From contig NZ_MDVX01000002.1 in the NCBI RefSeq assembly GCF_001719615.1, forward strand, positions 124,001 through 188,000: a stretch of 64,000 nt of DNA, given 5' to 3'. Below the pieces are notes generated by a model. That model was not told the DNA's origin. It did no database searches and was given only the letters and a program-made list of their open reading frames with translations. This document shows positions 15,784-50,820 of this stretch, one piece after another. Position 1 is the first letter of the stretch, and every line of letters begins with the position of its first letter. This DNA comes from Neptunicoccus sediminis. GTDB lineage: Bacteria; Pseudomonadota; Alphaproteobacteria; Rhodobacterales; Rhodobacteraceae. Both the position numbers and the translations under genes were made by a program.

Positions 15784-16512
15784 CTACCACGGCACTTCTA
15801 CCACGATCACTGTCACGTTATCGCGGCCGCCACCGTCCAGAGCGCCTTGCACCAGATGCCCGGCGATACCATCCATCGGATCATTGGCGAGCACGTTGAA
15901 GATGTCTGCTTCTTCCATGTAACCGCTCAACCCGTCCGAGCATAACAAAAACCTGTCGCCCGGTTCGTAGCGACCGCGCACCTTGGCGACTTCTGGCACA
16001 TCCCCCACGCCGATTGCACGGGTTATGACGTTGCCGTGGGGGTGGCGTTCTGCCTCTTCGCGGGTCAGTTTCCCTTCTTCCACCCATTCATTCACCAGCG
16101 AGTGATCCGAGGACAACTGACGAACGGCACCGTCGCGACAGTGGTACAGCCGGCTGTCCCCGACCCAGAGACAGACGAAATAATCCTGTTGCAAGATCAG
16201 TGACAGCGCGGTTGAGCCCATGGTCCCGCCGTCCCGAGCTTCGGCTTCACTCTGGATCGTGCGATGGGCGGCGTGGAACGCATCGCGCACGGCCTGCATC
16301 AACGCGGCCCCTTGCAGGTTTTCGGGAATGGCATTTATGGCGTTTACGATGGTTTGGCTGGCGAAGTCCCCTCCGGCGTGACCGCCCATGCCATCCGCCA
16401 CAGTCCAAAGCCCCAATGTCTCGCGACTGATCATACCGTCTTCGTTCAGATCCCGCACAAGGCCCACATGACTGGCCGCATCGGTCCGAAAGACCGGTCC
16501 CTGTTCAAACAT
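15784..16512 (-). CDS. pppA: T6SS serine/threonine phosphatase PppA (PP2C family)
   Basis: Cytoplasmic PP2C phosphatase of 242 residues that reverses phosphorylation by PpkA and so switches the secretion system off. PP2C motifs are in order: RDLNEDG near residue 20, VADGMGGHAGG near 40, GDSRLY near 115, LCSDGLSGY near 185 and DNVTVIV at the end; the metal-binding aspartates are present. I chose ATG 16512 (start MFEQGPVF), which overlaps tagF by eight bases; longer frames run back into tagF. It is the last gene of the leftward T6SS string. Confidence 0.92.
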   Translation of the reverse strand: MFEQGPVFRTDAASHVGLVRDLNEDGMISRETLGLWTVADGMGGHAGGDFASQTIVNAINAIPENLQGAALMQAVRDAFHAAHRTIQSEAEARDGGTMGSTALSLILQQDYFVCLWVGDSRLYHCRDGAVRQLSSDHSLVNEWVEEGKLTREEAERHPHGNVITRAIGVGDVPEVAKVRGRYEPGDRFLLCSDGLSGYMEEADIFNVLANDPMDGIAGHLVQGALDGGGRDNVTVIVVEVPW

Positions 16513-17077
16513 CCTGTAGCCCCCGATCCGGTGAAAGAAGTTCTGCAAACTGCGCCGCTTCGGGCATCCCGTCAAAGCGGCGGCTGTCCCGTCTGGGTGC
16601 GCCTGCATAAAAGGTGGAGAGCCAGTAGGACCGTCCGTTTGTGCTGCTGTTTTCTGGATCATACACAAAGGGCAAGACATCGAGCCGTCCTGACAACGCG
16701 CCCTTGTCGATCTGCGTATCCAGACAGGCGAGCGCGGCGTTTTCCAGTTCCGTCATCAAGGGTTCGTGATCCAGCAGCGCGGGCGTTGCCCCCTGTTCCA
16801 GCGGATGAAACAGGGTTAACGGAAAGCGTCGGCCAACCCGGTCCTGACTGGGCATCAAAACCCCTGTCATGGCGCGCTTCCCGCACACATTCGCATCCAG
16901 CACAAAGCGCCAGATGGGTGCGTTCTGGTAGGCCGCGTCCCAATCGCCTCTGAGGGTTTCGCGGCTTTTCGCCATGCCTTGTTGGAGAAACTGATCCCAT
17001 TCATTGATAAAGGATACATCACCGCGGGCGCGGATGAAATCGCCGTGGGCGGGGATTTTTCCATAAAACCCGAACAC
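16505..17077 (-). CDS. tagF: T6SS regulator TagF
   Basis: Post-translational repressor of type VI secretion, 190 residues. The N-terminus (GFYGKIPAHGDFI, then the WDQFLQQG segment) is the TagF signature, followed by WRFVLDANVCG and GVLMPSQDRVGRRFPL, all typical of the family. In Pseudomonas TagF binds Fha and blocks activation; the presence of Fha, PpkA and PppA here fits that. The start is GTG 17077, one base after the TssM stop. Confidence 0.93.
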   Translation of the reverse strand: MFGFYGKIPAHGDFIRARGDVSFINEWDQFLQQGMAKSRETLRGDWDAAYQNAPIWRFVLDANVCGKRAMTGVLMPSQDRVGRRFPLTLFHPLEQGATPALLDHEPLMTELENAALACLDTQIDKGALSGRLDVLPFVYDPENSSTNGRSYWLSTFYAGAPRRDSRRFDGMPEAAQFAELLSPDRGLQDV

Positions 17078-23854: not shown

Positions 23855-25432
23855 CTAATCCGATTTCAGTTTTTGCAATTGGTCCTTGTAGGCTTTGGCA
23901 AATTCCTTGCCGAACAAAGTATTAAAATCTTCTTCCGCGTCTTCGGACAGTTGTTTGTAGAGTTTTTCAAATACATCCCAGTATTGCGCTTTTTTGCCTT
24001 TGAGCAAGCCTCCCAAGCGGCCGCTGTCCTCTATTCGGGTGGCGAGTTCCGCCGGATCGAACCGCGCAAGCAGGGTTTTGATCGCGCTTTCCATGCCCGA
24101 CATCATCGCTACCTCATGGGCCTTGATGTCCATCATCGCTTCGGCGGCGGCTTTATCGGCGCTTTGATACCCGGCGACTGTGGGTTTGATCATCGCCTCC
24201 ACCGCCTGCTGACCGGAAATGGAAAACTTGATCGGATTGTTACCATCCGGCGAGATTGTCGTCTGGCCCAACCGCAATTCGTCCTTGATCGAGGCCCGCG
24301 CCATCAACACCTCTCGCGCGCCTTCCACTAGGGTGCGAAACGCGATGCCGGTGCGTTCCATGATCGGGCCGAGTTCTTCGTCGCTAATCCGGCTGTGATC
24401 CACACCGGCAGCCCCCAGAAACTGCCGCGCGAGGGCATGGTCAGAGGCGGATGACGGGTGCGGTGGTGGCGCTTCGGCTTGCGCCGCAGGTTGCGGCGCG
24501 GGCGGTTCAGGCTGCGCTGCAGGCTGTGGCGCGGGGGCCGCCGCCGGTTTTGCGGGGACCGGTTCTGGCGGCGTGCCGAGCAGTTCGTCAATCGGGTCAC
24601 TGCTGTCGCTTTTTGCGGGCTGTTCCGCCCTATCCGGCTCGGGGATGCTGAACGGCTCTGACGAAAAGGTTGTTTCCGGTATCAACCCGCCCCCGGCCGG
24701 AGCCGGCTGGCTTGGAGCGGCGGCATTAGGGGGGCCGCCCATCGGTTCGGGGGTTGCGCCCTGTAGGTCATCCTCCCAGTTGTCGGGAATGGCTTGCGCG
24801 GTGCTGTTGGAGCGAAAGAAATCCTGTCCGGGTCCCGAATGGTCCGGCACGCTTGCCCCGCCCTCGCGGTCGGGGTTCGGGGCCACGTCGAGAAAATCGT
24901 CAATGGTGTTGTCAGGATCATCCGACAGGTCCGGCGTTTTCATATCCATCGCATTCGGGGGTGCCTCCCCCAGCAGATCATCGAGAAAATCCCCGCCGTC
25001 CGTGTCCAGACTGCCCACTTCCGCCAGCGTATCAAGCGTGGGGGCCGTATCCTCTACAATCGGCTCCTCCCCCAGCGGGGGTGGCAGATCACCAAACGGA
25101 TCGGCAGAGGCAGTCGCCGTGACAATCACCACCTGCATTTCATAAGACCCGATCCGCAGCACATCACCGTCATTCAGCGGCGTTGGAAAATCCCCGAGCG
25201 GTGCGCTCTCTCCGTTCAGAAACGTGCCATTGGTCGAGGTATCGACAATCACGTAATCCCCGCCCCGTTCCTGCACCACCGCATGGGAAGACGAAATCTC
25301 GCGGGTGGGATCGGGCAGAACCACGTTGTTGGTTTCGGACCGCCCGATGGTTAACGCCCCTCCCACAAGCGGAAAAGCGGTTTCACGGCCCGGCTGGGCG
25401 CCACTGGACAGGATTTGCAACGTGAGGGTCAT
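23855..25432 (-). CDS. tagH: T6SS FHA-domain protein (Fha/TagH)
   Basis: Forkhead-associated protein that recognises phosphothreonine and switches the T6SS on after phosphorylation by PpkA. The FHA domain is at about residues 25-95: LTIGRSETNNVVLPD, then SSSHAVV and TSTNGTFLNG, with the Arg, Ser, His and Asn that bind the phosphothreonine. The middle (130-340) is a long acidic and Ala/Pro-rich linker. The final 190 residues (AFRTLVEGAREVLMAR to the end) match the C-terminal TagH domain. The 525-residue length is within the family range. Confidence 0.93.
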   Translation of the reverse strand: MTLTLQILSSGAQPGRETAFPLVGGALTIGRSETNNVVLPDPTREISSSHAVVQERGGDYVIVDTSTNGTFLNGESAPLGDFPTPLNDGDVLRIGSYEMQVVIVTATASADPFGDLPPPLGEEPIVEDTAPTLDTLAEVGSLDTDGGDFLDDLLGEAPPNAMDMKTPDLSDDPDNTIDDFLDVAPNPDREGGASVPDHSGPGQDFFRSNSTAQAIPDNWEDDLQGATPEPMGGPPNAAAPSQPAPAGGGLIPETTFSSEPFSIPEPDRAEQPAKSDSSDPIDELLGTPPEPVPAKPAAAPAPQPAAQPEPPAPQPAAQAEAPPPHPSSASDHALARQFLGAAGVDHSRISDEELGPIMERTGIAFRTLVEGAREVLMARASIKDELRLGQTTISPDGNNPIKFSISGQQAVEAMIKPTVAGYQSADKAAAEAMMDIKAHEVAMMSGMESAIKTLLARFDPAELATRIEDSGRLGGLLKGKKAQYWDVFEKLYKQLSEDAEEDFNTLFGKEFAKAYKDQLQKLKSD

Positions 25433-28502: not shown

Positions 28503-31500
28503 TCACAGATCCGCCAGCAAGGCTGCCAGATCCTCATCCATATCTTCGTCATCACCGGCGCTGTCGTCGTTATCATCGTCGTCAAAACCTGACAACAGAT
28601 CATCCAGATCACCGTCATTCCCAAGATCCAGATCAAGATCGCCGCCGTCGTCGCTGTCCTCGTCTTCCCCGTCCAGATCGAAACCGAGGTCAAAATCATC
28701 GTCGTCCCCGCCGCCAAGATCGAAATCGTCATCATCCCCGCCCAGATCAAAACCGTCATCTTCTGACGTGTCACTCTCGCCTTCTTCTTCTGCACCCACA
28801 GCCACGGGCGGCGCGGATTTTGCAGCCCCGCCCCCGAGTGCGACTCCGGTGCGGGACTGGATTTTACCCGATTGCAGCAGTTTTGCTTCCTCACCGGACC
28901 ACAGGCCCAGCAACTCGCCACCGCCCAGCCCGTTGAAAGAGCCAAGCCGCACCACGTTCTGCCCCTGAATAGAGAGCACCGGTAGATAGCCGCGCTGGAC
29001 GGTTTCGCTCGCCATGCGCACGTTGATCAGACGTTCGGTTGACGGCAAGGCTACCTGATCGCCGTATTGATCCAGCATGTAATGGAACGGCATATCGTCC
29101 AACGTCATAATAGACCCAAGCGACATCTCTGCCCCTTGCTGCGCCAGTGTTTGCGCCAGCAGGATCGCCACCAGCGTCGCCGGATTGCCCATCAGCAGGG
29201 AACGCATCCCTTCGCGGGTGTTGAATTCCTCGTAGGCGAAAGGCTCCACCGGATCGGTCTTTTTGCCGTAGGGCATCCGCAACAGGAACCGCGGCGTGGC
29301 CAGTGCGATGTATTTCGCTTCGGGTGTTTCGCGCAGGGCGGCCCATGTTTTGGCAATCAGCGGGTGCAGGTCTTCGGCCTTGGTTTGCAGATACCCTGCC
29401 CCCATCGCCGCGATAAAAGGCGCATCCATCTGTGCGCTGATCTTTGACATCCGCGCCAGCAGTTCCGCATGGGGCGGCGTTTCTTCAAAGGTATAAAGCC
29501 CCAGTACGGCGGCAAGCGGCCCCTGATCCTCGTTCAGACGGGGGCGTTCCACCAGCATATCATAGAGCGCACTCTCCCCCAGATCTTCATGGGCGGCGAG
29601 ATCGGCGGCAAATTCCTCTACCGCCACATCATAGAGCACCAGTTCCAGATGGCTGCCGGTTTCGATCCGCCGCGCCAGCATGTCCAGCGTACGCCAGTTG
29701 GCTTCCACCGCCTGAAAATCAGGGTGGTGCAGAATAGAGGACATGGCCGCGCCCAGCGCCTGATCAACTGCAGCCAAAAGGCTGTCCTGTCCGCTGTCTG
29801 GTGCGGCCACTATGAAGGGCGCCACGATGCGCTGGATCATATCTTCAATGGCAGTGGCTTCGGGTTTTGGTGCGGCCTCTGCCCCGATCAGTGCGGCAAA
29901 TTCGCTGACTTGCAGGGACGCATTCGCCGCTGCGCCGCGGGCCCGACCCTTGCGGGCCAGTTTGAAATCACCAAAGGCGCCGCCCCATTCCTGCAAAGTT
30001 GCGGTCAGATTGTCGAGATTGGTGCCCCGTTTCACCTGCGTGCGCAGGGCCGAGAGTTCGCCAAACAACTCTACATTGTCATAAAGTTCATCGGGATGCA
30101 GATCGTCGATTTCTCCCAGTTCCACCTCTATGGCAGACCCGTCGCGGCCCAGCGGCAATGTAAGGGTCGTCGCAAATCGCGCGATGACGTCTTCCACCGT
30201 GTCGATGTCGAACTTGATCGCTTTGCGGGACGCAAGATCGGCCCCGCCCTCAATCGCGCCCTTATTGGCACGGCCCGAGAAATCCCCGAGAATGGCAATC
30301 CGCATCTTGCGCCGGTCACCGGGTTTGATCTCCGGTTTCGGGGCGGTCATCTTGCCAAAGGCAGGATTATAAGGCGCTTTTGCGGCTGTCGCCTCTGCCT
30401 CCATGTCGCTCGCCTCCTCTCCCGTTTCGCTAGCATCGCTGGTTTCCGCATCGTCATCGTCAAAATCCGCAAGCATCGCGTCGAGATCATCCGCGTCACT
30501 CTCCCCGAGCAGATCTTCCAAATCGGTATCAGCCCCCTCATCCTCTGCAAGCAAGGCGTCAAGGTCGTCTTCCTCTGACGCCTCATCCAGATCGGCATCA
30601 TCCGCTAGAAGGTCATCCAACTCCGCGTCGGAGTCGTCATCCTCAGCAAGCAGGTCGTCGAGGTCTGTGTCCTCCCCATCCTCCGCAAACAGCGCGTTGA
30701 GGTCGTCGTCTTCGTCTGAAGCCTCCCCCGGATCGGCATCATCCGCCAGAAGATCATCTAACTCCGTGTCAGCGTCCTCTCCCTCTACACACAGGTCGTC
30801 GAGGTCTGTGTCCTCCCTATCCTCTGCAAGCAGCGCGTCGAGGTCGTCTTCCTCTGACGCCTCACTCGGATCAGCATCATCCGCTTGAAGAGCATCCAAC
30901 TCCGTGTCGGATTCTTCACTTTCTGCAAGCAGGTCGTCCAAATCCGTATCGTTTTCATCCTCTGCAAACAAAGCGTCGAGGTCCGTCGCCGTATCATCCT
31001 CGCCGCTCTCTTCTGCGAAATCAGTGTTCTGCGTCACATCTGACAGAAATTCGTCCAGATCCTCGTCTTCAGCCCCCTCTTTAGGCGCATCCTCGGCAAC
31101 CTCAGACAGCAACGCGTCGGTACTGTCGTCTTCCGGCTCGTCAGACGCTGCATCTGCCACGTCAGCGAGCAGGCTCTCTATGTCCTCCCCAGCTTCTTCC
31201 TCCTCTGGCAACTCCTCCGCCATATCGGACAGTAGATCGTCCACAGAGGTGTCCTCTCCGTCCTCCTCCGGTGCCTCTGCCGAAAGACTGTCCAGCAACG
31301 CGTCGGTACTGTCGTCTTCCGGCTCGTCAGACGCTGCATCTGCCACGTCAGCGAGCAGGCTCTCTATGTCCTCCCCAGCCTCTCCCTCCTCTGGCAACTC
31401 CTCCGCCATATCGGACAGTAGATCGTCCACAGAGGTATCAGCCTCTACTTCCTCCGGTTCCCCTGCCGAAAGACTGTCCAGCAGCGCGTAGGTACTGTCG

Positions 31501-32558
31501 TCTTCCGGTTCGTCAGACGCCGTATCCGCCACGTCAGCGAGCAGGCTCTCTATGTCCTCCCCAGCTTCTTCCTCCTCTGGCAATTCCTCCGCCATATCGG
31601 ACAGTAGATCGTCCACAGAGGTATCTTCTCCGTCCTCCTCCGGAGCCTCTGCCGACAGACTGTCCAGCAGCGCGTCGGTGGTACTGCCGTCTTCCGGCTC
31701 GTCAGGGGTGTTTTCTGCGACTTGGGACAGGATGCCTGTCACATCGTCGGTCTGGGCCTGCGGTTCCGGTGCGCTGGCGGCCATCTGTGCGAGCAGTTCG
31801 GCGGCGCTGTTATCCGCAGTATTCTCTGCCGGTGCAGCGGCTGCCATACCGGCGAGCACATTCGCTGTGGTGTCGGTTTCTTCTACATCCTCAGGGGCGC
31901 TGGCCGCCATAGACGCTAGCACGGCGGCAGCTGTATCTGCCTCTTCTTCCTCGGGTTGTGTCGCGGCCAGTTCCGCCAGAACCGCATCTGTACGGTCTTC
32001 TGTCGCGGCAGGCGCGGTGGCGGCAGACTTCATGGCGGAGAGAATATCATCCACCTCGGGGGCGTCGCCCTCTATCGCCTCGCCTGCCAGCAGTGCGCGA
32101 AAGGCGGTCGGGTTTTGCAACAGGGACAGGATCATATCCTCGGCCCCGGTCTTGCCGTCCATATAGGTCATCAGGTTGGACAATTGCGTGCGCGCATCGA
32201 GCAGCTTTTTCAGCGGCTCGATCTTGCTGGCAATGGCTGCGGGCGAAAAATCCTCCATCCGCTCAAACGTCAGATCAACCGGCAGATTGCCGGACCCTGT
32301 CAGCGTATTTGGCACAGAAAACACCGCGCGGGGTTTCATCGCCTTCATACGGCTGTCAAAATTATCCACGTCCACTTCAAGAAACTTGCGGTCCTCAACG
32401 CTGCCTTGCGAAACCTCTGAGGCACCGGAGAGATCCGCCATCACCCCCATCACAAAGGGCAACTGGACTTTCTTTTCGGCGCCATACACCTCTACGTCAT
32501 ATTCGATTTGGACGCGGGGGGCGCGGTTGCGGGCGATGAATTTCTGACTATCCGCCAT
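28503..32558 (-). CDS. giant sheath protein: TssB, acidic repeats, TssB/TssC-like module, acidic tail
   Basis: Protein of 1351 residues. Residues 1 to about 160 are a complete TssB; the first 45 are identical to the normal TssB of this locus. About 160-285 is an Ala/Glu/Asp linker with short repeats. About 290-485 holds three 62-residue tandem repeats, and 520-695 holds repeats of 46-47 residues (DLDDLL-type). From about 745 a second sheath module begins (RIAILGDFSGR, then DDLHPDELYDN), continuing into a TssC-like part to about 1230 (FRIPYGKKTDPVEPFAYE-like region, seen as MPYGKKTDPVEPF). The last 90 residues are extremely Asp-rich. The frame is open throughout, with good ribosome site AAGGACGG before ATG 32558, and the start overlaps the channel gene by 11 bases. 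Normal TssB and TssC are separately encoded, so this is an extra sheath-like part. Function unknown. Confidence 0.9.
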   Translation of the reverse strand: MADSQKFIARNRAPRVQIEYDVEVYGAEKKVQLPFVMGVMADLSGASEVSQGSVEDRKFLEVDVDNFDSRMKAMKPRAVFSVPNTLTGSGNLPVDLTFERMEDFSPAAIASKIEPLKKLLDARTQLSNLMTYMDGKTGAEDMILSLLQNPTAFRALLAGEAIEGDAPEVDDILSAMKSAATAPAATEDRTDAVLAELAATQPEEEEADTAAAVLASMAASAPEDVEETDTTANVLAGMAAAAPAENTADNSAAELLAQMAASAPEPQAQTDDVTGILSQVAENTPDEPEDGSTTDALLDSLSAEAPEEDGEDTSVDDLLSDMAEELPEEEEAGEDIESLLADVADTASDEPEDDSTYALLDSLSAGEPEEVEADTSVDDLLSDMAEELPEEGEAGEDIESLLADVADAASDEPEDDSTDALLDSLSAEAPEEDGEDTSVDDLLSDMAEELPEEEEAGEDIESLLADVADAASDEPEDDSTDALLSEVAEDAPKEGAEDEDLDEFLSDVTQNTDFAEESGEDDTATDLDALFAEDENDTDLDDLLAESEESDTELDALQADDADPSEASEEDDLDALLAEDREDTDLDDLCVEGEDADTELDDLLADDADPGEASDEDDDLNALFAEDGEDTDLDDLLAEDDDSDAELDDLLADDADLDEASEEDDLDALLAEDEGADTDLEDLLGESDADDLDAMLADFDDDDAETSDASETGEEASDMEAEATAAKAPYNPAFGKMTAPKPEIKPGDRRKMRIAILGDFSGRANKGAIEGGADLASRKAIKFDIDTVEDVIARFATTLTLPLGRDGSAIEVELGEIDDLHPDELYDNVELFGELSALRTQVKRGTNLDNLTATLQEWGGAFGDFKLARKGRARGAAANASLQVSEFAALIGAEAAPKPEATAIEDMIQRIVAPFIVAAPDSGQDSLLAAVDQALGAAMSSILHHPDFQAVEANWRTLDMLARRIETGSHLELVLYDVAVEEFAADLAAHEDLGESALYDMLVERPRLNEDQGPLAAVLGLYTFEETPPHAELLARMSKISAQMDAPFIAAMGAGYLQTKAEDLHPLIAKTWAALRETPEAKYIALATPRFLLRMPYGKKTDPVEPFAYEEFNTREGMRSLLMGNPATLVAILLAQTLAQQGAEMSLGSIMTLDDMPFHYMLDQYGDQVALPSTERLINVRMASETVQRGYLPVLSIQGQNVVRLGSFNGLGGGELLGLWSGEEAKLLQSGKIQSRTGVALGGGAAKSAPPVAVGAEEEGESDTSEDDGFDLGGDDDDFDLGGGDDDDFDLGFDLDGEDEDSDDGGDLDLDLGNDGDLDDLLSGFDDDDNDDSAGDDEDMDEDLAALLADL
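30480..30990 (-). repeat. 138-141-bp in-frame repeats inside the giant sheath gene
   Basis: Units begin at 30542, 30680, 30821 and 30959, spaced 138, 141 and 138 bases. Each encodes a 46-47-residue acidic block with the pattern DLDALLAED, DTDLDDLL, DTELDDLLADDAD. The copies diverge more than the 186-bp repeats, so they look older. Confidence 0.85.
31107..31690 (-). repeat. 186-bp in-frame tandem repeat inside the giant sheath gene
   Basis: The same word (CAGCARCGCGT) recurs at 31107, 31293, 31479 and 31665, exactly 186 bases apart, and long stretches between are nearly identical. Each unit encodes 62 residues with blocks DALLDSLSAEAPEE, SVDDLLSDMAEELPEE and DIESLLADVAD. This is a recent tandem expansion kept in frame. 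Confidence 0.9.
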
Positions 32559-33399
32559 TTTTACCGTCCTTTTCGGATTTCAGTGCCGCAAGTTGTTGCT
32601 GGATCTGCTCCAGTTGCTCTTGCACGCGGGCGTTGCCTTCGGACACCACCCCCATGATCCGCTCCAGTTCTGCGTCCTGCTCTTCTTCCACGGCGGCCTG
32701 CATGGTGTTGACCAGCAAACCGATAAACAGGTTCAGAACAGCAAAGGCGGTGCAGATGATGAAGGGGACGAAAAAGGCCCAGGCAAAAGGGTGTGCAGCC
32801 ATAACAGGGCGTACGATCCCCATGGACCAGCTTTCCAGCGTCATAATCTGGAACAGCGAATAAAGCGATGCGCCGACCGATCCGAACCACTGGGGGAAAG
32901 TCTCGCCATATAGCATGGTCGCCATAACCGCGAAGATGTAGAACACGATGGACAAAAGGATCACCACCGCGCCCATTCCGGGCATCGCATCCAGCAGCGC
33001 CTTGATCACATCGCGCATCTGGGGCACCGCCGAAAGCACCCGCATGGCGCGGATCACCCGCAAGCCGCGTAAGACCCGCAGACTGTCAGACGCCGGCACC
33101 AGCGAAATCGTCACAATGGCCAGATCAAAGATATTCCACGCCGACAGGAAAAAGCGCCAGCCATAGGCGTAGAGCTTCAACAGCATCTCCACCACGAAGA
33201 TCACAATCACCACATCGTCAAACAGGGCCAGCAATCCGCCTGTTGCCGCGACGATCTGCTCTGATGTGGCAAGGCCGAGGGTGATGGCATTCAGGATGAT
33301 GATCACAAGAATAAACTTGGTGACTGCGGGCTGTTCAAGCCAGACAACCAGCTTTTGGCGATGGTTGCGACTGTTCGTATCTGTTGAGGTATACAGCAT
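32548..33399 (-). CDS. voltage-gated sodium channel, NavAb/NaChBac type
   Basis: Inner-membrane ion channel of about 283 residues forming a homotetramer. Six spans are visible. S4 has five arginines each three apart (LRVLRGLRVIRAMR). The linker into S5 reads SAVPQMRDVIKALL. The pore has the selectivity filter TLESWSMG, identical to that of NavAb, and S6 is FFVPFIICTAFAVLNLFIGLLV. The C-terminus is a coiled coil (EEEQDAELERI, VQEQLEQIQQQL), as in other bacterial channels of this family. ATG 33399 is chosen; TTG 33411 in frame is possible, and neither has a clear ribosome site. Its stop overlaps the next gene's start by 11 bases, which suggests translational coupling. Roseobacters are known to have such channels; location within a T6SS operon is what is unusual. 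Confidence 0.93.
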   Translation of the reverse strand: MLYTSTDTNSRNHRQKLVVWLEQPAVTKFILVIIILNAITLGLATSEQIVAATGGLLALFDDVVIVIFVVEMLLKLYAYGWRFFLSAWNIFDLAIVTISLVPASDSLRVLRGLRVIRAMRVLSAVPQMRDVIKALLDAMPGMGAVVILLSIVFYIFAVMATMLYGETFPQWFGSVGASLYSLFQIMTLESWSMGIVRPVMAAHPFAWAFFVPFIICTAFAVLNLFIGLLVNTMQAAVEEEQDAELERIMGVVSEGNARVQEQLEQIQQQLAALKSEKDGKNGG

Positions 33400-33465
33400 G
33401 CGTCGTTTCAATCTTGTCAGTCTATTCAGCGTGGCGGCACCGCTGTGGCGCCGCCACAGGGCCGC

Positions 33466-34635
33466 TTAGCCCAGTTTCTTCAAAACACCGTTCAGCTTTT
33501 TGGTCAGGTCAAACAGCGTCTTGCCGCCGGTAACAACGGATTGCGCGAATTCCTGATGGTCGCCTGCGAATTTTAACACGCCGGTGACTTTATCGCTGGA
33601 AAATTCGCCGGTTTTATCCAACCGCAAAAGTTGCGCTTTCACTTCGGTTTTGAGCTTGGCAAAAGCCTTCAGCTTTTCGTCAAACTTTTCAGCGGTTCTT
33701 GCGGTGCGGCCTGCCATTTCCTTGGCTTTCAACGCCTCTGCTGACACCGCCTTGTTCGGATGGGACGACATCTTGTCCCAATGTTCCTTGGCCTCGGCCG
33801 CCGCCGCGATGGCTTTGAGGTTTTCCTTGCGCATCAGGATGAAGCGGGCCTCGGCAGCGTCCAGATGTTTGTTCAGGGATTTCACATGCGCCTTGGTGCC
33901 CCCCATCAGCAGCTTGACCTTCTCTTTTGGGCCAAGCTTGCGGTATTCGGCGGCTTTCTTCTTCTTGATTTCATAGTCGATGGCCTTTTCAATGGCATCG
34001 ACATCTTTCTTGATCTTGTCCAGAAAGCCCTGATAGGCGTTGTATTCCTTATAGACAATCTGGCCGCTTTTGACCAAAGCCGTCACCCCTGTGGCAATCA
34101 TACCGATCACCACCCCCGCGGTGATGCCTGCTGCCAATGGGGCGGCCAGTCCGGCGGTTGCGATGGAAATGGCAGCCGCGGCCACGACAATCAGAACCAG
34201 CACAACAATTTTCAGAACAACCTTGGCCTTCTTGCGGTTCAGCTTTTTCTTCAGCTTCTTTTCCATATACGCGTAGACGTTTTCGATACATTCTTCCGCC
34301 AGTTTGGGCACCTCTACATTACGCCAGACATCCACCCCCTGCTGGATCATCTGGTTGGCCACCTTTACAGCAGCATCCATGTCTTTGGGGGGCTTCTTCT
34401 TCCAGTCTTTTTCGGTGGCTTCCATGGCCGATTTTATGGCTTTTTCCCGCGCTGCCGCCAGTTTGGCAAAGCCTTTAGTGAACAGCTTCTTGAAAGCCTC
34501 CACAAGTAATTTTGTCTCGGTCGGTGTTTCCCCTTCGGGCAGGACGTGATTCAATTCGTATTCACATTTCGGCTTTTGAAACAAAGACCCCTTATATCCG
34601 ATTTTCAGACTGCCTTTGGATGTTAACGTTGCCAT
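33466..34635 (-). CDS. lysine-rich protein with central membrane hairpin, unknown function
   Basis: A 389-residue protein, strongly basic, with no signal peptide. Residues about 1-140 form charged helices with KKLKKKLNRKKAK at the end. A hydrophobic region of about 45 residues follows (about 140-190: LKIVVLVLIVVAAAAISIATAGL then further Gly/Ala-rich stretch), long enough for a two-span hairpin. The rest is amphipathic, Lys/Ala/Glu-rich helix. The arrangement resembles pore-forming toxins of colicin type, but I see no sequence motif proving it. It lies between clpV and the sodium channel. GGGAGAAAAG precedes ATG 34635. It could be a T6SS effector, a membrane anchor, or a partner of the acidic giant protein. 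Confidence 0.75.
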   Translation of the reverse strand: MATLTSKGSLKIGYKGSLFQKPKCEYELNHVLPEGETPTETKLLVEAFKKLFTKGFAKLAAAREKAIKSAMEATEKDWKKKPPKDMDAAVKVANQMIQQGVDVWRNVEVPKLAEECIENVYAYMEKKLKKKLNRKKAKVVLKIVVLVLIVVAAAAISIATAGLAAPLAAGITAGVVIGMIATGVTALVKSGQIVYKEYNAYQGFLDKIKKDVDAIEKAIDYEIKKKKAAEYRKLGPKEKVKLLMGGTKAHVKSLNKHLDAAEARFILMRKENLKAIAAAAEAKEHWDKMSSHPNKAVSAEALKAKEMAGRTARTAEKFDEKLKAFAKLKTEVKAQLLRLDKTGEFSSDKVTGVLKFAGDHQEFAQSVVTGGKTLFDLTKKLNGVLKKLG

Positions 34636-34678: not shown

Positions 34679-37390
34679 CTACCCAAATTCGTATGTAAAC
34701 GCGTCCCCGTCTGTGCTGACGCTCACTGTTTTGACGTCTTCTCCGGCCATCATCTTGCGCAGGAATTCCCCTGACACGGCGGGAAGCAGGCTATTGGTCA
34801 AGATCGCGTCAATCATCCGTCCGCCGCTTTCCACTTCCTGACAACGCGACACGATCAGATCGACCACCTTATCGTCATAGGTAAAGGGCACACCGTGGGT
34901 GTCGCTGATCCGTTTGACCACACGGTTCAGTTGCAACTTTGTGATCGCACCGATCATGTCGGGACTAAGCGGGAAGTAGGGAATAGTGACAATCCGCCCG
35001 AGCAATGCCGCGGGAAACACCTTCAGCAACGGTTCGCGCAGCGCCTTGGCGATGCCTTCGGGTTCGGGCATCAGGTCGGGATCCTTGCACATATCCATAA
35101 TCAGATCGCTGCCCGCATTGGATGTCAGCAGGATCAGCGTGTTTTTAAAGTCGATCATCCGGCCCTCGCCGTCTTCCATCACGCCTTTGTCAAACACCTG
35201 AAAGAAAATCTCGTGCACGTCAGAGTGGGCTTTTTCCACTTCGTCCAGCAGCACCACGGAATAGGGCTTGCGCCGCACCGCTTCGGTCAGGATGCCGCCC
35301 TCGCCATAGCCCACATAACCCGGAGGCGCGCCTTTCAGCGTGCTGACCGTATGGCTCTCCTGAAATTCGGACATGTTGATGGTGATCATATTTGCCTCAC
35401 CGCCATAAAGCGTTTCGGCTATGGCAATGGCGGTTTCGGTTTTGCCGACACCGCTGGTGCCTGCCAGCATGAACACCCCGATAGGCTTGCTGGGATTGTC
35501 GAGTCCGGCCCGCGCGGTTTGCACCCGTTTGGCGATCATCTCCATCGCGTGATCCTGTCCGATCACCCGTTTCTTCAGCGCATCGGCAAGATTTAGAACG
35601 GTGTTGATCTCGTCCTTGACCATGCGACCCACCGGAATACCCGTCCAGTCCCCGACCACGCTGGCCACCGCCTGTTCGTCTACGATGGGCAGGATCAGCG
35701 GGCTTTCGCCCTGAACCTCTTTCAATTCCGCGTCCTTGGCCTTTAGATCGGCCAGCAGCACGGCGCGTTCGTCCTCGCTCATCTCGCTGCCCTCGGGCAC
35801 CTCTGCGGCCGCCTCGCCCTCTACCGCGCCGCCGTCGCCACGCAGGGTGGCCCGCAGGTAGAGGATGTCGTCCACGATCTTCTTTTCCGCCTGCCAACGC
35901 TCTGTCAGCCCGTGGAGTCTGTCGGTTTCAGCATTCAGTTTCTCTTGCGCCTCGGTCTCGCGATCCCCGATATCATATCCGGCGGATTTTTCCCGTCCGA
36001 TGATGCCCAGTTCGGTTTCAAGGGCAGCGATCCTCTTTTGGGAATCCTCCACCTCTGCCGGTGTCGCATGTTGCGAAATCCCGACACGCGCGCAGGCAGT
36101 GTCGATCAGGCTGACGGATTTATCCGGCAACTGGCGTGCCGGAATATAACGTGCCGAAAACTGTACCGCCGCCTCGATCCCTTCGTCGAGAACCTGAACG
36201 CGGTGGTGTTTTTCCAGCATCCCGACAATGCCGCGCATCATCAGGATTGCCTTTTCCACGCTGGGTTCGTCCACCTTCACCACCTGAAAGCGCCGTGTCA
36301 GGGCGGGGTCTTTTTCGATATGTTTCTTGTATTCCGCCCAAGTCGTGGCCCCGATAGTGCGCAGCTCTCCGCGCGCAAGGGCAGGTTTCAGCAGGTTCGC
36401 CGCATCCCCTGTGCCCGCCGCCCCGCCAGCGCCAACAAGGGTGTGAGTTTCGTCGATGAACATGATAATCGGCGTGGTAGAGGACTGCACTTCTTCGATC
36501 ACCTGCTTCAGACGGTTTTCAAATTCGCCTTTCATGCTGGCCCCCGCCTGCAGCGCGGCCACGTCCAGTTCCAGCAAACGCGCACCCTGCAACAGTGGCG
36601 GCACGTCTCCTTTGGCGATGCGCAGGGCGAAACCTTCGACGACGGCGGTTTTGCCTACGCCCGCCTCGCCCGTCAGGATCGGGTTGTTCTGGCGGCGGCG
36701 CATCAGGATGTCGATCAACTGGCGAATTTCCTCGTCCCGCCCGACGATCTGGTCGATCTCTCCGCTGGCGGCAAGTTCGGTCAGGTCCTTGCAATACTGC
36801 TGCAAGGCTTCCTCTTTGCCCATCGCCGCTGGCGCCATCGCCCCCGAAGACTCGCCCGGTTGCGCCCCGGCCCCCGCCCCGATTCCGGTCCCGTCCTGCG
36901 GCGCAAGCCCGTCTTCCGGCGATCCGTCGGTAACTTCGCTAAAGTTATCGAGCAGATCGTCCGGCTTTACCTTTTTGAATTCCTCGCTCATCCCGTTCAA
37001 CACACTGCGCAAGGATGAGGTTTTCACCATACCAAGGACCAGATGCCCCGTGCGCACCTGCGGGCTTTTATGCGCAAGAGACGCGTAGACCCATGCCCGC
37101 TCCACCGCGTTTTCAAGATGTTCGGAGAGATCGGAAATGGAGGATGCGCCGCGGGGCAAAGCGTCAAGCGCGGCGGTCATATCCTTTGCCACTTTAGCCG
37201 GTTCCAGATCGTAATGCTGGATAATCCGGTGCAGATCGCTGTCCTGACCCTGCAAAATCTGGTGCATCCAGTGGACCAGCTCCACATAAGGATTGCCCCG
37301 CATCTTACAGAAAACAGAGGCGCTCTCAATCGCCTGATACCCGAGCTTGTTCAACTTGCCAAAAAGGGCAACGCGGCTGATCTCTGACAT
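34679..37390 (-). CDS. clpV: T6SS sheath-recycling ATPase ClpV
   Basis: Hexameric AAA+ unfoldase (TssH) that disassembles contracted TssB/TssC sheath. The N-domain (1-160) precedes D1 with Walker A GEAGVGKT near residue 240 and the Walker B segment [13 protein letters not shown] near 310, the coiled-coil middle domain, and D2 with Walker A GTSGVGKT near 645. The [19 protein letters not shown] segment is typical of ClpV. The 903-residue length is normal. GGAAGGA lies eight bases upstream of ATG 37390. Confidence 0.96.
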
Positions 37391-40307: not shown

Positions 40308-40817
40308 CTACATCACCTTGTCGATAACAAGATCACCATCCGCCACATCCAGACGGGTGCGTAGATAGAGCTCCAGCGGGACCGGCGTGGCCCAAAGCTC
40401 TCCGCGGATGTCCATCGTGATCTGGCTGTCCGCCGCATCCGGCATGGCCTTGGCCGCTGTTACCTCCAGCGTGCCCGGAATAATGCGCGGTTCCAGTGCG
40501 TAGATCGCCTCCTTGATGGAAGATTCCAGCGTTTTCGCATCGGTCTGCAACACCTTGCGTCCGGCAATATCGCTGATGCCGAAATTCAACGTAGACCGCG
40601 CCGCATGGGGATAGAGGGCGGGTTCGATAATCTCTTCGTTATTGGCGGTGTTCAGCAACCAGCCGAGATCCCGCAGGATGATGTCCCGCAAACGGCGCAC
40701 GTCGATATAGCGTTCGGCTGCAGAGTCTTTCGTGTCGGTCGGGGATTTGTCGGTCAACCTGTCCAGCAGGGAAGGTTGCAACCGTTCGCGATCGGAAAGT
40801 TCAGTCCGCGCCATCAC
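40308..40817 (-). CDS. tssE: T6SS baseplate protein TssE
   Basis: Phage gp25-like baseplate protein, 169 residues. The N-terminus reads SLLDRLTD, and the diagnostic gp25 region includes LNFGISDIAG, then SIKEAIYALEPRIIPGTLEV. The ribosome site is inside tagJ, with which it overlaps by 17 bases. It precedes tssF. Confidence 0.94.
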   Translation of the reverse strand: MMARTELSDRERLQPSLLDRLTDKSPTDTKDSAAERYIDVRRLRDIILRDLGWLLNTANNEEIIEPALYPHAARSTLNFGISDIAGRKVLQTDAKTLESSIKEAIYALEPRIIPGTLEVTAAKAMPDAADSQITMDIRGELWATPVPLELYLRTRLDVADGDLVIDKVM

Positions 40818-41616
40818 CGCCCCCCACTGCAGAAAGGGAAATACTGCGCAGGTCCATCAGCGCCAGATCCGCGTTATTGGTGGCAAACAACCGCTGCCCG
40901 ATTCCAAGATAGGTTTCATCACCCGCATCAATCCAGTCGGTTTCCCGCGCCAGCATGATCCCTGCCCGCTTTGACTGGGCAGACCCGGGATAGCGGGTCG
41001 GGATAAAGCCCACCACATCGCCGCCATTGGCCCATGTGATTTCTACAGGGGTCCAGACCTTGTCCCGCAGATCGCTCGGATCATCAAAGGTCATGCGTTT
41101 AATGTTGGAAAACGGTGCCCAGTAGTAGCGCCCGTTCATCACCAGTTCCAGCATCGGACCAAGGCGCATATCCGCGTCTGCAATCCATTCAAAAGCCGTG
41201 CCGTCGGCTTCACCGCTCTGGCTCGGGGCTGCGTCAAATGCCTCATTGCGCAATGTGGCGGCCTGCGCTGTGTCACCCTTGGCCAGCAGGCCAAGCGACT
41301 GGATCATCAGCGCCACCCACTGCGCCGGTTCGCCAAAGATCAGCGGCGCGGTTTCACCGGCAAAGACTTTCTCGCGCACCATTTCGCAGGCAATCGCCTC
41401 GCGGTAGGACTGAACCATCGGCATGGTGTCGGGTGCCATCTCGCCGCAGACTTTTAACTGGGTCAGCGCCCGATCCCATTCGCCGCGCACACAGAGCATC
41501 TGGAACAGGAACACCCGCAGTTTGCTGTCGGCTGGATCCTTGCGGATGCTGGCGGTCAGGGCGTCATAGGCTGCATCCAGATTGCCCGCCTTCAAATGGT
41601 CGATCGCGTCGCTCAT
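40801..41616 (-). CDS. tagJ: T6SS accessory protein TagJ (ImpE)
   Basis: Protein of 271 residues of the ImpE/TagJ family. The N-terminal half consists of tetratricopeptide-like helices (LKAGNLDAAYDAL, VFLFQMLCVRGEWDRALTQL). The C-terminal domain has the family segments FEWIADADMRLGPMLELVMNG and GRYYWAPF. In Pseudomonas, TagJ binds the N-terminal helix of TssB; here two proteins carry that helix, the normal TssB and the giant sheath protein. It lies downstream of hcp after a marked hairpin. Confidence 0.94.
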   Translation of the reverse strand: MSDAIDHLKAGNLDAAYDALTASIRKDPADSKLRVFLFQMLCVRGEWDRALTQLKVCGEMAPDTMPMVQSYREAIACEMVREKVFAGETAPLIFGEPAQWVALMIQSLGLLAKGDTAQAATLRNEAFDAAPSQSGEADGTAFEWIADADMRLGPMLELVMNGRYYWAPFSNIKRMTFDDPSDLRDKVWTPVEITWANGGDVVGFIPTRYPGSAQSKRAGIMLARETDWIDAGDETYLGIGQRLFATNNADLALMDLRSISLSAVGGGDGAD

Positions 41617-42375: not shown

Positions 42376-43869
42376 TCAGCCCTTCTCGGAGGGCAGTTTT
42401 GAGACCAGCCGCAAAGACACCGAAAGCCCTTCCAACTGGTAATGGGGCCGCAGGAAAAATTTGGAAGTGTAATAGCCGGGATTGCCCTCGACCTCTTCCA
42501 CCACCACCTGTGCTGCGGCCAGCGGACGCTCGGCTTTGGTTGCTTCGGATGAAATTTCCGGAGTCATATCAACGTAATTGCTGATCCATTTTTGCAGCCA
42601 GGCTTCCATATCTCCACGTTCTTTGAAGGAACCGACCTTATCGCGTACAATACATTTGAGATAATGCGCAAAGCGGCAGGTGGAGAAGAGATAGGGCAAA
42701 CGCGCACCAAGGTTTGCGTTGGCCGTTGCATCCGGATCGTCGTATTCCGCCGGTTTATGCAGGGATTGGGCGCCGATGAAGGCGGCCATGTCACTGTTTT
42801 TACGGTGGATCAGAGGCATCAGACCGTTCTTGGCCAGTTCTGATTCACGGCGGTCCGAAATCGCAATTTCTGTCGGGCATTTCATATCAACGCCACCGTC
42901 ATCGGAAGGGAAGGTATGGGTGGGCAGGTTTTCCACCGCACCGCCGGATTCAATGCCACGGATACGGGTACACCAGCCGTAATGCTTGAACGAGCGGGTG
43001 ATGTTGGTTGCCATCCCATAGGCCGCATTGACCCATGAATAATGGCCGCTGTCCGCCCCTTCCGTGTCTTCCTCAAAGGCGAATTCATCGACCGGATCGG
43101 TCTTTTCCCCGTAAGGGTGCCGGCCAAGGAAACGGGGCATGGCAAGGGCAAGATACTGGCTGTCCTCGCTTTCGCGCAGAGAGCGCCACGCAGCATATTC
43201 CGGTGTTGAGAATATCTTGGTCAGATCGCGGGGGTTGGCCAGTTCGCTCCAGCTGTCCATTTGCATCAGGGACGGTTCCGCGCCGGTGATAAAGGGCGCG
43301 TGGCTGGCCGCTGCAATCTTGGCCATTTCCGAGAGCAATTGCACATCGGGTGGGGAATGGTCAAAGTGGTAATCCCCGACCAGACAGCCGTAAGGCTCGC
43401 CGCCGAATTGTCCGTATTCCTCTTCATAGAGCTTCTTGAAGATCGGGGACTGGTCCCATGCCGCGCCTTTGAATTTCTTCAGCGTCTTGCCGAGATCCTT
43501 CTTGGATACATTCATCACACGGATTTTCAGCATCTCGTCGGTTTCGGTGTTGTTCACCAGATAGTGCAGACCGCGCCAGCTGCTCTCCAGCTTTTGAAAC
43601 TCCTCGTTGTGCAGGATTTCATTCACCTGCGCCGTGAGGGTCTTGTCCAGTTCCGCAATAATCGCCTCGATAGAGCGCAGCGCGTCGTCCGACACCAGCC
43701 CAGTATTGGCAAGCGCCTGTTCTGCCAGCGTTTTGACCGCTTCTTCAACGGCTGTCTTGGCCGTGTCCGATTTGGGGCGGAATTCCTTTTGCAGCAGGGA
43801 GGCGAATTCGTCATTGGCAAAGACCGTACTGCCGGACTGGCCTTCGACTTGTGCTTCAGCTTCAGCCAT
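42376..43869 (-). CDS. tssC: T6SS sheath large subunit TssC
   Basis: Large subunit of the contractile sheath, 497 residues. The family shows in SWRGLHYLVNNTETDEMLKI near residue 95, YGQFGGEPYGCLVGDYHFDH near 150, and GRHPYGEKTDPVDEFAFEE near 245. The C-terminus (FFLRPHYQLEGLSVSLRLVSKLP) is the conserved inserted strand. GGGGAGGAATAACA precedes ATG 43869. It follows tssB by two bases and is the standard partner of the normal TssB. Confidence 0.97.
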   Translation of the reverse strand: MAEAEAQVEGQSGSTVFANDEFASLLQKEFRPKSDTAKTAVEEAVKTLAEQALANTGLVSDDALRSIEAIIAELDKTLTAQVNEILHNEEFQKLESSWRGLHYLVNNTETDEMLKIRVMNVSKKDLGKTLKKFKGAAWDQSPIFKKLYEEEYGQFGGEPYGCLVGDYHFDHSPPDVQLLSEMAKIAAASHAPFITGAEPSLMQMDSWSELANPRDLTKIFSTPEYAAWRSLRESEDSQYLALAMPRFLGRHPYGEKTDPVDEFAFEEDTEGADSGHYSWVNAAYGMATNITRSFKHYGWCTRIRGIESGGAVENLPTHTFPSDDGGVDMKCPTEIAISDRRESELAKNGLMPLIHRKNSDMAAFIGAQSLHKPAEYDDPDATANANLGARLPYLFSTCRFAHYLKCIVRDKVGSFKERGDMEAWLQKWISNYVDMTPEISSEATKAERPLAAAQVVVEEVEGNPGYYTSKFFLRPHYQLEGLSVSLRLVSKLPSEKG

Positions 43870-43871
43870 TG

Positions 43872-44381
43872 TTATTCCTCCCCTGCATCATCTTTTTGTT
43901 TTGGTGCAGCACTCAGCGCTTTCATCAGCGCGGGGTCCTGTATGATCTTGGCCATCAGGTCTTCGGCCCCTGTTTTACCATCCATATAGGTCATCAGATT
44001 GGACAATTGGGTACGCGCATCGAGCAGCTTTTTCAGCGGCTCTACCTTGCTGGCAATCGCGGCGGGGCTGAAATCATCCATGCTTTCAAAGGTAATATCT
44101 ACCGCCATATTGCCTTCGCCGGTCAGCGTGTTGGGCACGGTAAAGGCCGCGCGGGGTTTCATGGACTTCATCCGGTCGTCGAAATTATCCACGTCCACTT
44201 CCAGAAACTTGCGATCGGCCACCGCGGGTAGCGGCACTTCCGACTTGCCGGAAAGATCGGCCATCACGCCCATCACAAACGGCAATTGCACCTTCTTTTC
44301 AGCGCCATAGACTTCGACATCATATTCGATCTGAACGCGGGGGGCCCGGTTGCGGGCGATAAATTTCTGGCTGTCAGCCAT
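43872..44381 (-). CDS. tssB: T6SS sheath small subunit TssB
   Basis: Small subunit of the contractile sheath, 169 residues. The first residues (MADSQKFIARNRAPRVQIEY) contain the TagJ-binding and sheath-interlocking N-terminus; LPFVMGVMADLSG and RKFLEVDVDNFDDRM are the conserved core, and PLKKLLDARTQLSNLM is the C-terminal helix. I chose ATG 44381, with AGAGGAGA nine bases upstream; an upstream in-frame start at 44441 has no such site. Compare the first domain of the giant sheath protein, which is a close duplicate. Confidence 0.97.
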   Translation of the reverse strand: MADSQKFIARNRAPRVQIEYDVEVYGAEKKVQLPFVMGVMADLSGKSEVPLPAVADRKFLEVDVDNFDDRMKSMKPRAAFTVPNTLTGEGNMAVDITFESMDDFSPAAIASKVEPLKKLLDARTQLSNLMTYMDGKTGAEDLMAKIIQDPALMKALSAAPKQKDDAGEE

Positions 44382-47970: not shown

Positions 47971-47979
47971 GAGATGGTA

Positions 47980-49587
47980 ATGCCAGCATGGATGGACCGG
48001 AAACAGCGCAGCGCCCTGCCCGCCGCATTCCTGATGCTGGCCTTTTTGGTTTTGGCGCAAGTCGCCAGCGCAAAGGACCGCGTGGCCCTGCTGATCGGCA
48101 ACAGCCGCTATGATAATTCCGCCCTGTCCCTGAAGAATCCGGCCAATGATGTGGCCGCAATGGGCAAGAAACTGGCCGCGCTCGGGTTTGTGGTGATCTC
48201 GGCGCAGGATGCCTCGCGCAGCGACATGGACCGCGCATTGGGCGCTTTTGAACGACAGTTGAAGGGCGCAGAGCTCGGCCTGTTCTTTTACGCCGGTCAC
48301 GGCAGTCAGGCAGGGGGCGAAAATTTCCTGCTGGCCACGGATTTTCAAGGCACCACATCGGGCGCGGTGAAGGAATATTCCCTGACGCTCGGTCGGGTCA
48401 GGGACACTTTTGCCAATGCCAAACCGGATGCGGGGATCGTTATTCTGGATGCCTGCCGCGACAATCCGCTGGCGATCACGCTGGACCAGACCGGAAAGCC
48501 CGCAGGACTGGCGCGGGCAAAATCCGCGACTGGACTGCTGGTGGCCTATGCCACCGATCCGGGCAACGTGGCTTTTGAAGGCACAAGCGACAATTCGATT
48601 TTCACGACTGCGCTGCTGAAACATATCTCAGAACCCGGCCTCGATGTGCGCCTGATGTTCGGGCGGGTGCGACAGGATGTGGTGCTGCGCACACGGGGGG
48701 CGCAGGTGCCGTGGGTTGAGGAAAGTCTGATTGGCGAGTTTTCCATGAACCCCTCCATGGCCTCGGGCGGGCGTGAGGCGATGATCGCGCGGGACATCGA
48801 AATGTGGCGCCGTGTCAGCGCAAAGACCACACCGCAGGCGTATCAGTCCTATCTTGATGCTTTCCCAAACGGGATGTTCAGGGATTTTGCCCATCAGCGG
48901 ATTTCACGGCTCAGCTATTCCGCCAATCTGCCACAGGATAAGAAACCCCGGCAAATTACCGAACTGGACGTAACCAGCGACACCGAAAAAATTGCGGCTG
49001 CTCTTGGCATTCTGGGCTTCACCCCCCAAAGCCGCAGCGCACCCGACATAGAGGAACTGGAACTGGCCGCCGCCGCATATCGCGCCTCGCTTGGCGAAGA
49101 CGCCGCCCTGACGCAAGACAATCTCTTTGCCGATGCCTCGCGCCTGCTGCTTTATCTTGGGGGCAATGTGGGCAAGCAGATTCAGGTGGATATTGCTGCC
49201 CTGTCCAGCATCGACCAGACGCTGATTGTGGCACGGGATGCCTATGCCGAACTGGAACAGGTCGCCGCCGGCGACGAGAGCGCCAAGCCCATTCTTGAAC
49301 AGGCCCGCGCCGATATTGCCGCGATAGAGCGTGCCCAGACCGAAGTGCTGGCCCAATTGGATCAGGAACGGGCCTATTACGAAGAACTGATGGAACAGGC
49401 CAATGCGAATTTCCCTGATTATATGGTGGAGCGCACCATTGGCGTCGCGGTGACACGCTCTGCCCCTGTGGATGACGAAAAACTGGCAGGCCGCGCCAAA
49501 TTGTTTCTGAAACATGTCAATCAGGCAGCCAATGCCGAAACCCGAGGATCCTATCAATGGCTTTCCGATTTCCTGCCACAAAGCTGA
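47980..49587 (+). CDS. secreted caspase-family peptidase (C14)
   Basis: A 535-residue protein with a signal peptide (1-31, cleavage after ASA) and a p20 caspase-like domain at about 33-260. The catalytic pair is present: His107 in FFYAGHGSQ and Cys159 in IVILDACRDNP, with the usual LLIGNSRYDNSALSLKNPANDV start. The C-terminal half is helical and Ala/Glu-rich, with coiled-coil stretches near 400-480. I chose ATG 47980 because AGGAG is six bases upstream; ATG 47974 is too close. Caspase-like proteins of bacteria are often linked to stress or defence, but here it is in a T6SS unit with a barrel and lipoproteins upstream of ppkA. Its 3' end overlaps the next gene by 31 bases. Confidence 0.85.
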   Translation: MPAWMDRKQRSALPAAFLMLAFLVLAQVASAKDRVALLIGNSRYDNSALSLKNPANDVAAMGKKLAALGFVVISAQDASRSDMDRALGAFERQLKGAELGLFFYAGHGSQAGGENFLLATDFQGTTSGAVKEYSLTLGRVRDTFANAKPDAGIVILDACRDNPLAITLDQTGKPAGLARAKSATGLLVAYATDPGNVAFEGTSDNSIFTTALLKHISEPGLDVRLMFGRVRQDVVLRTRGAQVPWVEESLIGEFSMNPSMASGGREAMIARDIEMWRRVSAKTTPQAYQSYLDAFPNGMFRDFAHQRISRLSYSANLPQDKKPRQITELDVTSDTEKIAAALGILGFTPQSRSAPDIEELELAAAAYRASLGEDAALTQDNLFADASRLLLYLGGNVGKQIQVDIAALSSIDQTLIVARDAYAELEQVAAGDESAKPILEQARADIAAIERAQTEVLAQLDQERAYYEELMEQANANFPDYMVERTIGVAVTRSAPVDDEKLAGRAKLFLKHVNQAANAETRGSYQWLSDFLPQS

Positions 49588-50748: not shown

Positions 50749-50820
50749 CGAAAAGCTGGGCTACTCTCTCCCTGACGGACTCGGTTTTTGCCGTGTCGCC
50801 CCCATAAAAAGGACCACCCA

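Follow-up and report, generated by a model that had tools for sequence, protein, structure and literature searches.

Anatomy of a TssCL-type accessory sheath protein encoded in a type VI secretion locus of Neptunicoccus sediminis

A stretch of 64,000 nucleotides from Neptunicoccus sediminis (contig NZ_MDVX01000002.1, positions 124,001 to 188,000), hereafter referred to as the window, was examined in the present study for a single gene of its type VI secretion system (T6SS) operon. This gene (28503..32558, minus strand) encodes a protein of 1351 residues which, judging from its frame and its relatives, belongs to the TssCL-type accessory sheath proteins. Re-examination of the frame returned exactly the coordinates, strand and length given in an earlier sequence-only reading of this DNA. 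Based on Pfam profiles, the protein comprises a T6SS_VipA match at residues 9–157 (whole-protein E-value of 7e-61, two stretches), a second VipA stretch in the part containing DFSGR (30.3 bits, above the Pfam cut-off) and a VipB match at residues 925–1205 (E-value of 2.6e-40). VipB_2 (PF18945) was not found in the protein at an E-value of 0.1, whereas the canonical TssC (42376..43869, minus strand) has both VipB and VipB_2. The N-terminal domain, and no other part, scored above the cut-off for canonical TssB (TIGR03358; 195 bits versus 97), while the score against canonical TssC (TIGR03355; 147.7 bits) fell below the cut-off of 271.5. A VipA/VipB profile search of the window's own genome recovered three genes only, all in the same operon: that of TssCL, canonical tssB and canonical tssC. 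The domains that the sequence-only reading had described, namely a full TssB, an Asp/Glu-rich linker, a second sheath-like half and an Asp-rich tail, were all recovered, with the refinement that the second half consists of a TssB-like part followed by a TssC-like part without its C-terminal domain. Among the conditions that would undo it, the reading had named a frame-splitting sequencing error; since 52 of 81 proteins (that of the window and 80 relatives, the best 80 of at least 517 in the genome collection) keep the same domain order, the protein is not an artefact and represents a genuine domain fusion, beyond chance.

Proteins of this class are already known. The name TssCL was given by Suria et al. 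2022 (PMC9515649), the available portions of which define it as two VipA domains plus one VipB, with no function assigned, and report a TssCL-type cluster in 20 of 28 roseobacter reference genomes. The same portions describe a TssCL of 1684 residues in Leisingera sp. ANG-M7, with values of 86% (first VipA to TssB), 26% (second VipA) and 31% (VipB), place it in a T6SS that resembles the H1-T6SS of P. aeruginosa most closely, and note that TssCL had not been detected beyond the Alphaproteobacteria. The window protein combines two VipA stretches with one VipB in a single frame, and is accompanied by separate tssB and tssC genes in an H1-like T6SS with TagJ and an FHA protein, the H1 likeness resting on the best solved relatives, HsiB1 and HsiE1. 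It shares these features with the TssCL of Leisingera and other roseobacters, and, as far as those portions go, differs from the Leisingera protein not in kind but in being shorter (1351 versus 1684 residues). The view that no function had been described for this design therefore needs amending for the class, which has been described, and holds for the function, of which no treatment was found in the open-licence PMC literature (titles and abstract openings among the matches listed). The available portions of PMC9515649 make no mention of a motif array, a missing VipB_2, a C-terminal motif, stand-alone relatives or a channel gene, and the anatomy reported here (array, stripped second module and tail) is new. 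The sequence-only reading had cited Agrobacterium as a precedent for two TssC-type proteins. Agrobacterium TssC40/ImpD is likewise a second TssC-like protein in an alphaproteobacterial T6SS, and the two TssC proteins are non-redundant for Hcp secretion according to the available part of PMC3702570. A rhizobial second TssC from Phyllobacterium (L138:14026-15474), used here in place of Atu4340, contains both VipB and VipB_2 but lacks VipA, and TssCL lacks the features of this type as taken from the Phyllobacterium protein. Identity with TssC40/ImpD was rejected on this domain content, and the precedent concerns a different kind of protein, one with no TssB-like part.

The TssB copy spans residues 1–160 (32079..32558, minus strand) and comprises an arm (residues 1–45) and a TssC-binding helix at approximately residues 105–135. 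Its presumed partner, and that of the canonical TssB (43872..44381, minus strand), is the canonical TssC. The arm is identical to that of the canonical TssB, as had been claimed, although the two genes differ at many synonymous sites and share 81% DNA identity over 428 bp; for this reason we regard the copy as an old one under purifying selection, and as neither a recent duplicate nor an assembly duplicate. Recent duplication and gene conversion were both rejected on the synonymous divergence and on a poorly resolved TssB tree (1 of 27 branches starred), on which the fused/canonical label changes twice compared with about 10 times in shuffles. The first VipA stretch is much closer to its cognate TssB (79% over 168 residues) than is the second stretch with its 30.3-bit match. 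Across 13 genomes with both copies, mean between-copy identity was 92% at residues 1–30, 95% at 31–45, 78–81% at 46–140 and 42% at 141–160. Among the fused copies themselves (13, compared with 17 canonical TssB), near-canonical conservation was limited to residues 1–45 (88% and 91%, versus 92% and 94%), with residues 46–140 relaxed (73–78% versus 84–93%) and residues 141–160 more relaxed still (46% versus 66%). The hydrophobic face of the TssC-binding helix is kept, with I109, L116, L119, L126 and L129 present in 13/13 fused copies, V or I at position 113 in 13/13, and L at position 120 in 12 and F in one.

The best solved relative of the fused TssB is HsiB1 (245 bits), residues 8–30 of which bind TagJ/HsiE1 in the crystal according to the available part of PMC4239648. 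The counterpart of this segment lies within residues 1–45 of the fused copy by alignment, and seven of the eight TagJ-contacting residues named there are identical, the remaining one being V for L. Partial texts further indicate that the N-terminal VipA linker contributes to the sheath mesh (PMC5813253) and that the TssB helix has a role in TssC binding (PMC3840085). On these comparisons the TssB copy keeps a predicted TagJ-binding arm and a predicted TssC-binding helix, and could in principle replace TssB in the sheath protomer with the remainder of the protein hanging outside. Such an arrangement had been suggested previously, and it gains from the retained helix and arm and from the assembly of TssB1-sfGFP (a C-terminal fusion, judging by its name) into sheaths in E. 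coli, as given in the accessible part of PMC3840085; the outcome itself is no more than plausible.

The acidic linker (residues 161–735; 30354..32078, minus strand) contains 17 hLxxh motifs in a register of 20–21 residues, followed by DLDxLL-type repeats. At approximately 575 residues, with 21% Asp, 17% Glu and a net charge of -218, it bears out the Asp/Glu-rich linker of the sequence-only reading. Two tandem DNA repeats fall within it, one of 186 bp in 3.2 copies with three motifs per unit (31107..31705, minus strand) and one of 138 bp in 3.2 copies (30539..30983, minus strand), and the first six of the 17 in-register motifs lie outside both. The window linker has 18 hLxxh sites, of which the 17 are consecutive at this spacing. 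Among 52 linkers, 159 to 1003 residues long in the relatives, 1351 hLxxh sites were counted compared with a mean of 320 in shuffles preserving composition only, with 2 to 48 sites per linker (median 23). Spacings of 19–22 residues account for 1002 of 1299 overall and for 278 of 389 among non-redundant units (<50% identical to one another), compared with 4% (at most 8%) in the shuffles. The commonest residues of a unit are D-D-(L/T)-D-D-(L/V/A/I)-L-(A/G)-x-L plus an acidic, Pro-containing spacer, and in 800 of 1336 units the five residues preceding the motif include a Thr or Ser. The linker forms an in-register array of short acidic amphipathic motifs.

The second sheath-like module (module 2) begins with a TssB-like half at approximately residues 748–845 (30024..30317, minus strand; GDFSGR at 758–763), which aligns to solved TssB chains from about their residue 32, and continues with a TssC-like half represented by the VipB match (28944..29786, minus strand). 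It shares with TssB/VipA/HsiB1 and TssC/VipB/HsiC1 the same predicted fold. Unlike those subunits it lacks both lattice connectors, namely the arm at the N-terminus of TssB and the gpW/gp25-like domain (PF18945) of TssC, and TssCL as a whole, whose N-terminal domain is itself a TssB, adds the long acidic linker and the tail. Module 2 looks like an old tssB-tssC fusion stripped of its lattice connectors. The Asp-rich tail (residues 1230–1351; 28506..28871, minus strand; 31% Asp over the last 126 residues) carries a conserved motif, here LDDLLSGF (28584..28607, minus strand) and LDDLLAGF-like in general, and closes with a conserved C-terminal motif, here DEDMDEDLAALLADL-COOH (28506..28550, minus strand), which approximates (M/I)D-x-(E/D)-LAALL-x-x-L. 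All 80 protein ends fitted a loose version of this pattern, two proteins with cut ends (L070 and L116) being excluded, and L587, L609 and A611 were invariant in 78 aligned sequences. In an AlphaFold model of module 2 plus tail, the tail is disordered save for two short helices at the tail motifs. By its residues the C-terminal motif is of the array type, and the conservation of the core together with the end motif suggests that the main function lies outside the TssB copy itself.

In the family sample, 18 of the 197 genomes besides the window's own gave module 2 matches of at least 472 bits (19/198 with that genome included), and no match was listed for another genome of the same genus (G120). 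The nearest named relative among the matches listed is that of Amylibacter cionae (95%, contig-cut). The window and 80 loci comprise 52 full fusions (L070 cut at its end, and L090 and L101 cut at their starts within TssB), 17 stand-alone forms (L132 and L136 with N-terminal extensions without TssB), 10 rows cut at a contig start before the N-terminus, and two special cases outside the 52, namely L079 with a diverged TssB and L112. In the latter, from Pseudophaeobacter leonis, the TssCL gene is present as two frames. Full fusions among the loci examined were confined to the Alphaproteobacteria, including Rhizobium sp. GN54 and Roseibium, in agreement with the limit given in the available portions of PMC9515649. 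Stand-alone module 2 was also found on metagenome-assembled contigs named Planctomycetota, Spartobacteria and Rhodospirillales, for which short length and binning are a caveat, and on a plasmid of the betaproteobacterium Eleftheria terrae (L055, 15.9–17.7 kb). The C-terminal motif likewise reaches a betaproteobacterium and contigs that binning had assigned to Planctomycetota and Verrucomicrobiota. Near the T6SS locus of Eleftheria terrae, several consecutive genes (31.2–33.3 kb) carry RebB R-body annotations. In a phylogeny built from 61 module 2 sequences, 17 of them without TssB (61 of 69 alignment rows, with eight contig-cut rows dropped and L079 and L112 counted as fused), the fused/stand-alone label requires five changes, four of which are forced by starred branches. 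The phylogeny indicates that the TssB-array part has been gained or lost while the core of module 2 and C-terminal motif was retained.

A motif resembling those of the array also occurs in TagH, the FHA protein of the operon (23855..25432, minus strand), the linker of which carries DFLDDLL and DPIDELL. An Asp-rich pattern ending in (D/E)LL was present in 60/67 TagH and 64/82 module 2 proteins, compared with 8/67 TssK, 6/9 TssC (DVELL), 1/65 TssL and 1/6 TssB (the L112 frame); it was absent from 15 further families of the window, four of them with only 1–3 members. The simplest reading is that the motif has a common partner within this T6SS clade, one not specific to TssCL.

Between clpV and vgrG, the window encodes in order a hypothetical protein, a voltage-gated channel of NavAb type and TssCL. 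The clpV gene (34679..37390, minus strand) has R6/F10/I85/D87/L88 as in P. aeruginosa ClpV1, and tagJ (ImpE; 40801..41616, minus strand) encodes a predicted binder of the TssB N-terminal arm, with HsiE1 as its best solved relative (261 bits). Five syntenic T6SS operons (L169-L173), taken from family-sample genomes in which TssC was matched but module 2 was not matched strongly, run from clpV directly to vgrG, and the TssCL cassette in this interval is for that reason considered accessory and dispensable. These operons represent natural controls for cassette function. The hypothetical protein (33466..34635, minus strand; 389 residues) includes a hydrophobic stretch and has BLAST relatives in only two of the 80 named loci; genes for one or two fast-diverging proteins of about 300–410 residues separate clpV from the channel or TssCL gene in the window and in L036, L038, L041, L043, L044, L049, L050, L052 and L053, and these proteins are possibly effectors or cassette-specific partners. 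The end of the channel gene (32548..33411, minus strand; best solved relative 5hvx, 268 bits) overlaps the TssCL start by 11 bp. Across the window and 81 loci, some of these contig-cut, there were 51 channel matches, with the TLESWSMG filter of the window identical in 50, and an overlap with the TssCL frame of 4, 8 or 11 bases in 36 loci. An obligate partnership is unsupported, as seven fused loci (L061-L063, L066, L068, L069 and L050) lack a channel match. The filter is the one found in NavAb-type channels, which are selective for Na+, and calcium sensing by the acidic arm was dropped on this account. Genes related to phosphorylation are a kinase (50788-53166), a PP2C phosphatase (15784-16680) and TagH, and these, together with the Thr/Ser residues preceding the motifs, make phosphorylation of the array possible. 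A caspase-like peptidase frame was recognised by eye from GHG and DACRD segments just past the T6SS operon (47974-49587, plus strand).

Taking these observations together, we tentatively favour, at somewhat less than even confidence, an interpretation of TssCL as an accessory docking scaffold borne on the sheath, anchored by its TssB copy and docking through its array a partner shared with TagH. The TssB copy would pair with canonical TssC and be incorporated at low stoichiometry into the sheath or one of its ends, much like a natural TssB-GFP fusion, while the arm would stay outside, presenting many docking motifs similar to those of TagH and keeping the shared partner highly concentrated locally at the sheath. 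Module 2, lacking the mesh-knitting parts, would serve as the functional head, able to work without TssB and array as in the stand-alone relatives. Since the system seems to run without it, TssCL would tune assembly, docking or firing rather than be a core part. Several observations weigh against this interpretation. The TagH motif is also present in T6SSs without module 2, in 5/10 TagH long enough to judge versus 13/17 with module 2 (loci came from 30 of the 47 genomes with TagH), which makes the link between TssCL and TagH a loose one and leaves strict co-evolution unsupported; the pattern was, moreover, picked after inspection of the window's TagH and also catches the DVELL of TssC. AlphaFold confidence at the tail motifs is middling (10-residue means of 61 and 66–74 in the module 2 plus tail model), which neither favours nor disfavours docking of these motifs onto module 2. 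TssCL genes adjoin or neighbour vgrG, with tagH and tssK downstream, and a baseplate role would fit this setting too. Tandem duplication alone maintains a register, and amphipathic acidic repeats could be mere bristles for solubility. This last idea, in which the arm only keeps the sheath soluble or reflects a near-neutral repeat expansion in a drifting fusion, would account for the extreme acidity, the variable length and the tandem DNA repeats; the register persists, however, among units that are <50% identical, and we consider the idea improbable.

Stronger, although still unlikely, is the proposal that module 2 forms a specialised ring of sheath type, or a cap, and sits at the baseplate or the distal end, where it could do without lattice connectors. 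The TssB part would then lend its N-terminal arm to the final ring, and the acidic arm would space further addition or block it. Both a cap and a regulator of the sheath had been raised in the sequence-only reading. A cap would need other surfaces for contact with its neighbours, none of which was identified, and the proposal sits poorly with the wide range of linker lengths and with the five operons that lack the gene. Rather doubtful is a competitor or regulator, in which the TssB domain, by binding TssC or TagJ, restrains the growth of the sheath or directs its disassembly by ClpV, with the array and module 2 setting only the level or place of the protein. The TagJ-binding segment is indeed under the tightest constraint within the fused TssB, TagJ is encoded in the operon, and the window ClpV has residues of the TagJ-associated class, but this reading leaves the array, module 2 and C-terminal motif unexplained, and module 2 and its end motif persist in proteins without any TssB. 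In a further proposal the hLxxh motifs act as mimics of the N-terminal helix of TssC (LLDEII type) and bring ClpV to the sheath; in its favour, they resemble the VipB LLDEIM helix. The window ClpV, however, has the R6/D87 pair that blocks the groove in P. aeruginosa ClpV1 (residue states from the available part of PMC4239648), and the window TssC has EFASLL, as in HsiC1, rather than LLDEII; a ClpV-binding array was rejected as the leading idea on these blocked-groove residues and is very improbable. More speculative than the docking scaffold, and a long shot by analogy, is an arm that reads the lattice as nebulin repeats follow actin. Each unit of 20–21 residues, a short helix plus an extended acidic spacer, would bind a subunit of a successive sheath or tube ring, with the arm fixed at its TssB end and headed by module 2, and the repeat number would set or sense sheath length, or the arm would maintain the extended state pending a signal from phosphorylation or membrane potential. 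The signal is suggested by the kinase, FHA protein, phosphatase and Nav-type channel all encoded around TssCL.

TssCL has thus been a named class since 2022 without a mechanism. The present anatomy separates a detachable anchor, consisting of TssB and the motif array, from a conserved core of module 2 and the C-terminal motif, and this core occurs alone and beyond the Alphaproteobacteria without the parts that knit the sheath. The short motif, together with its like in TagH, offers a bait for a partner search, and the arm and tail make TssCL testable. Should the array indeed read the sheath lattice, the finding would bear on the control of T6SS sheath length and firing.

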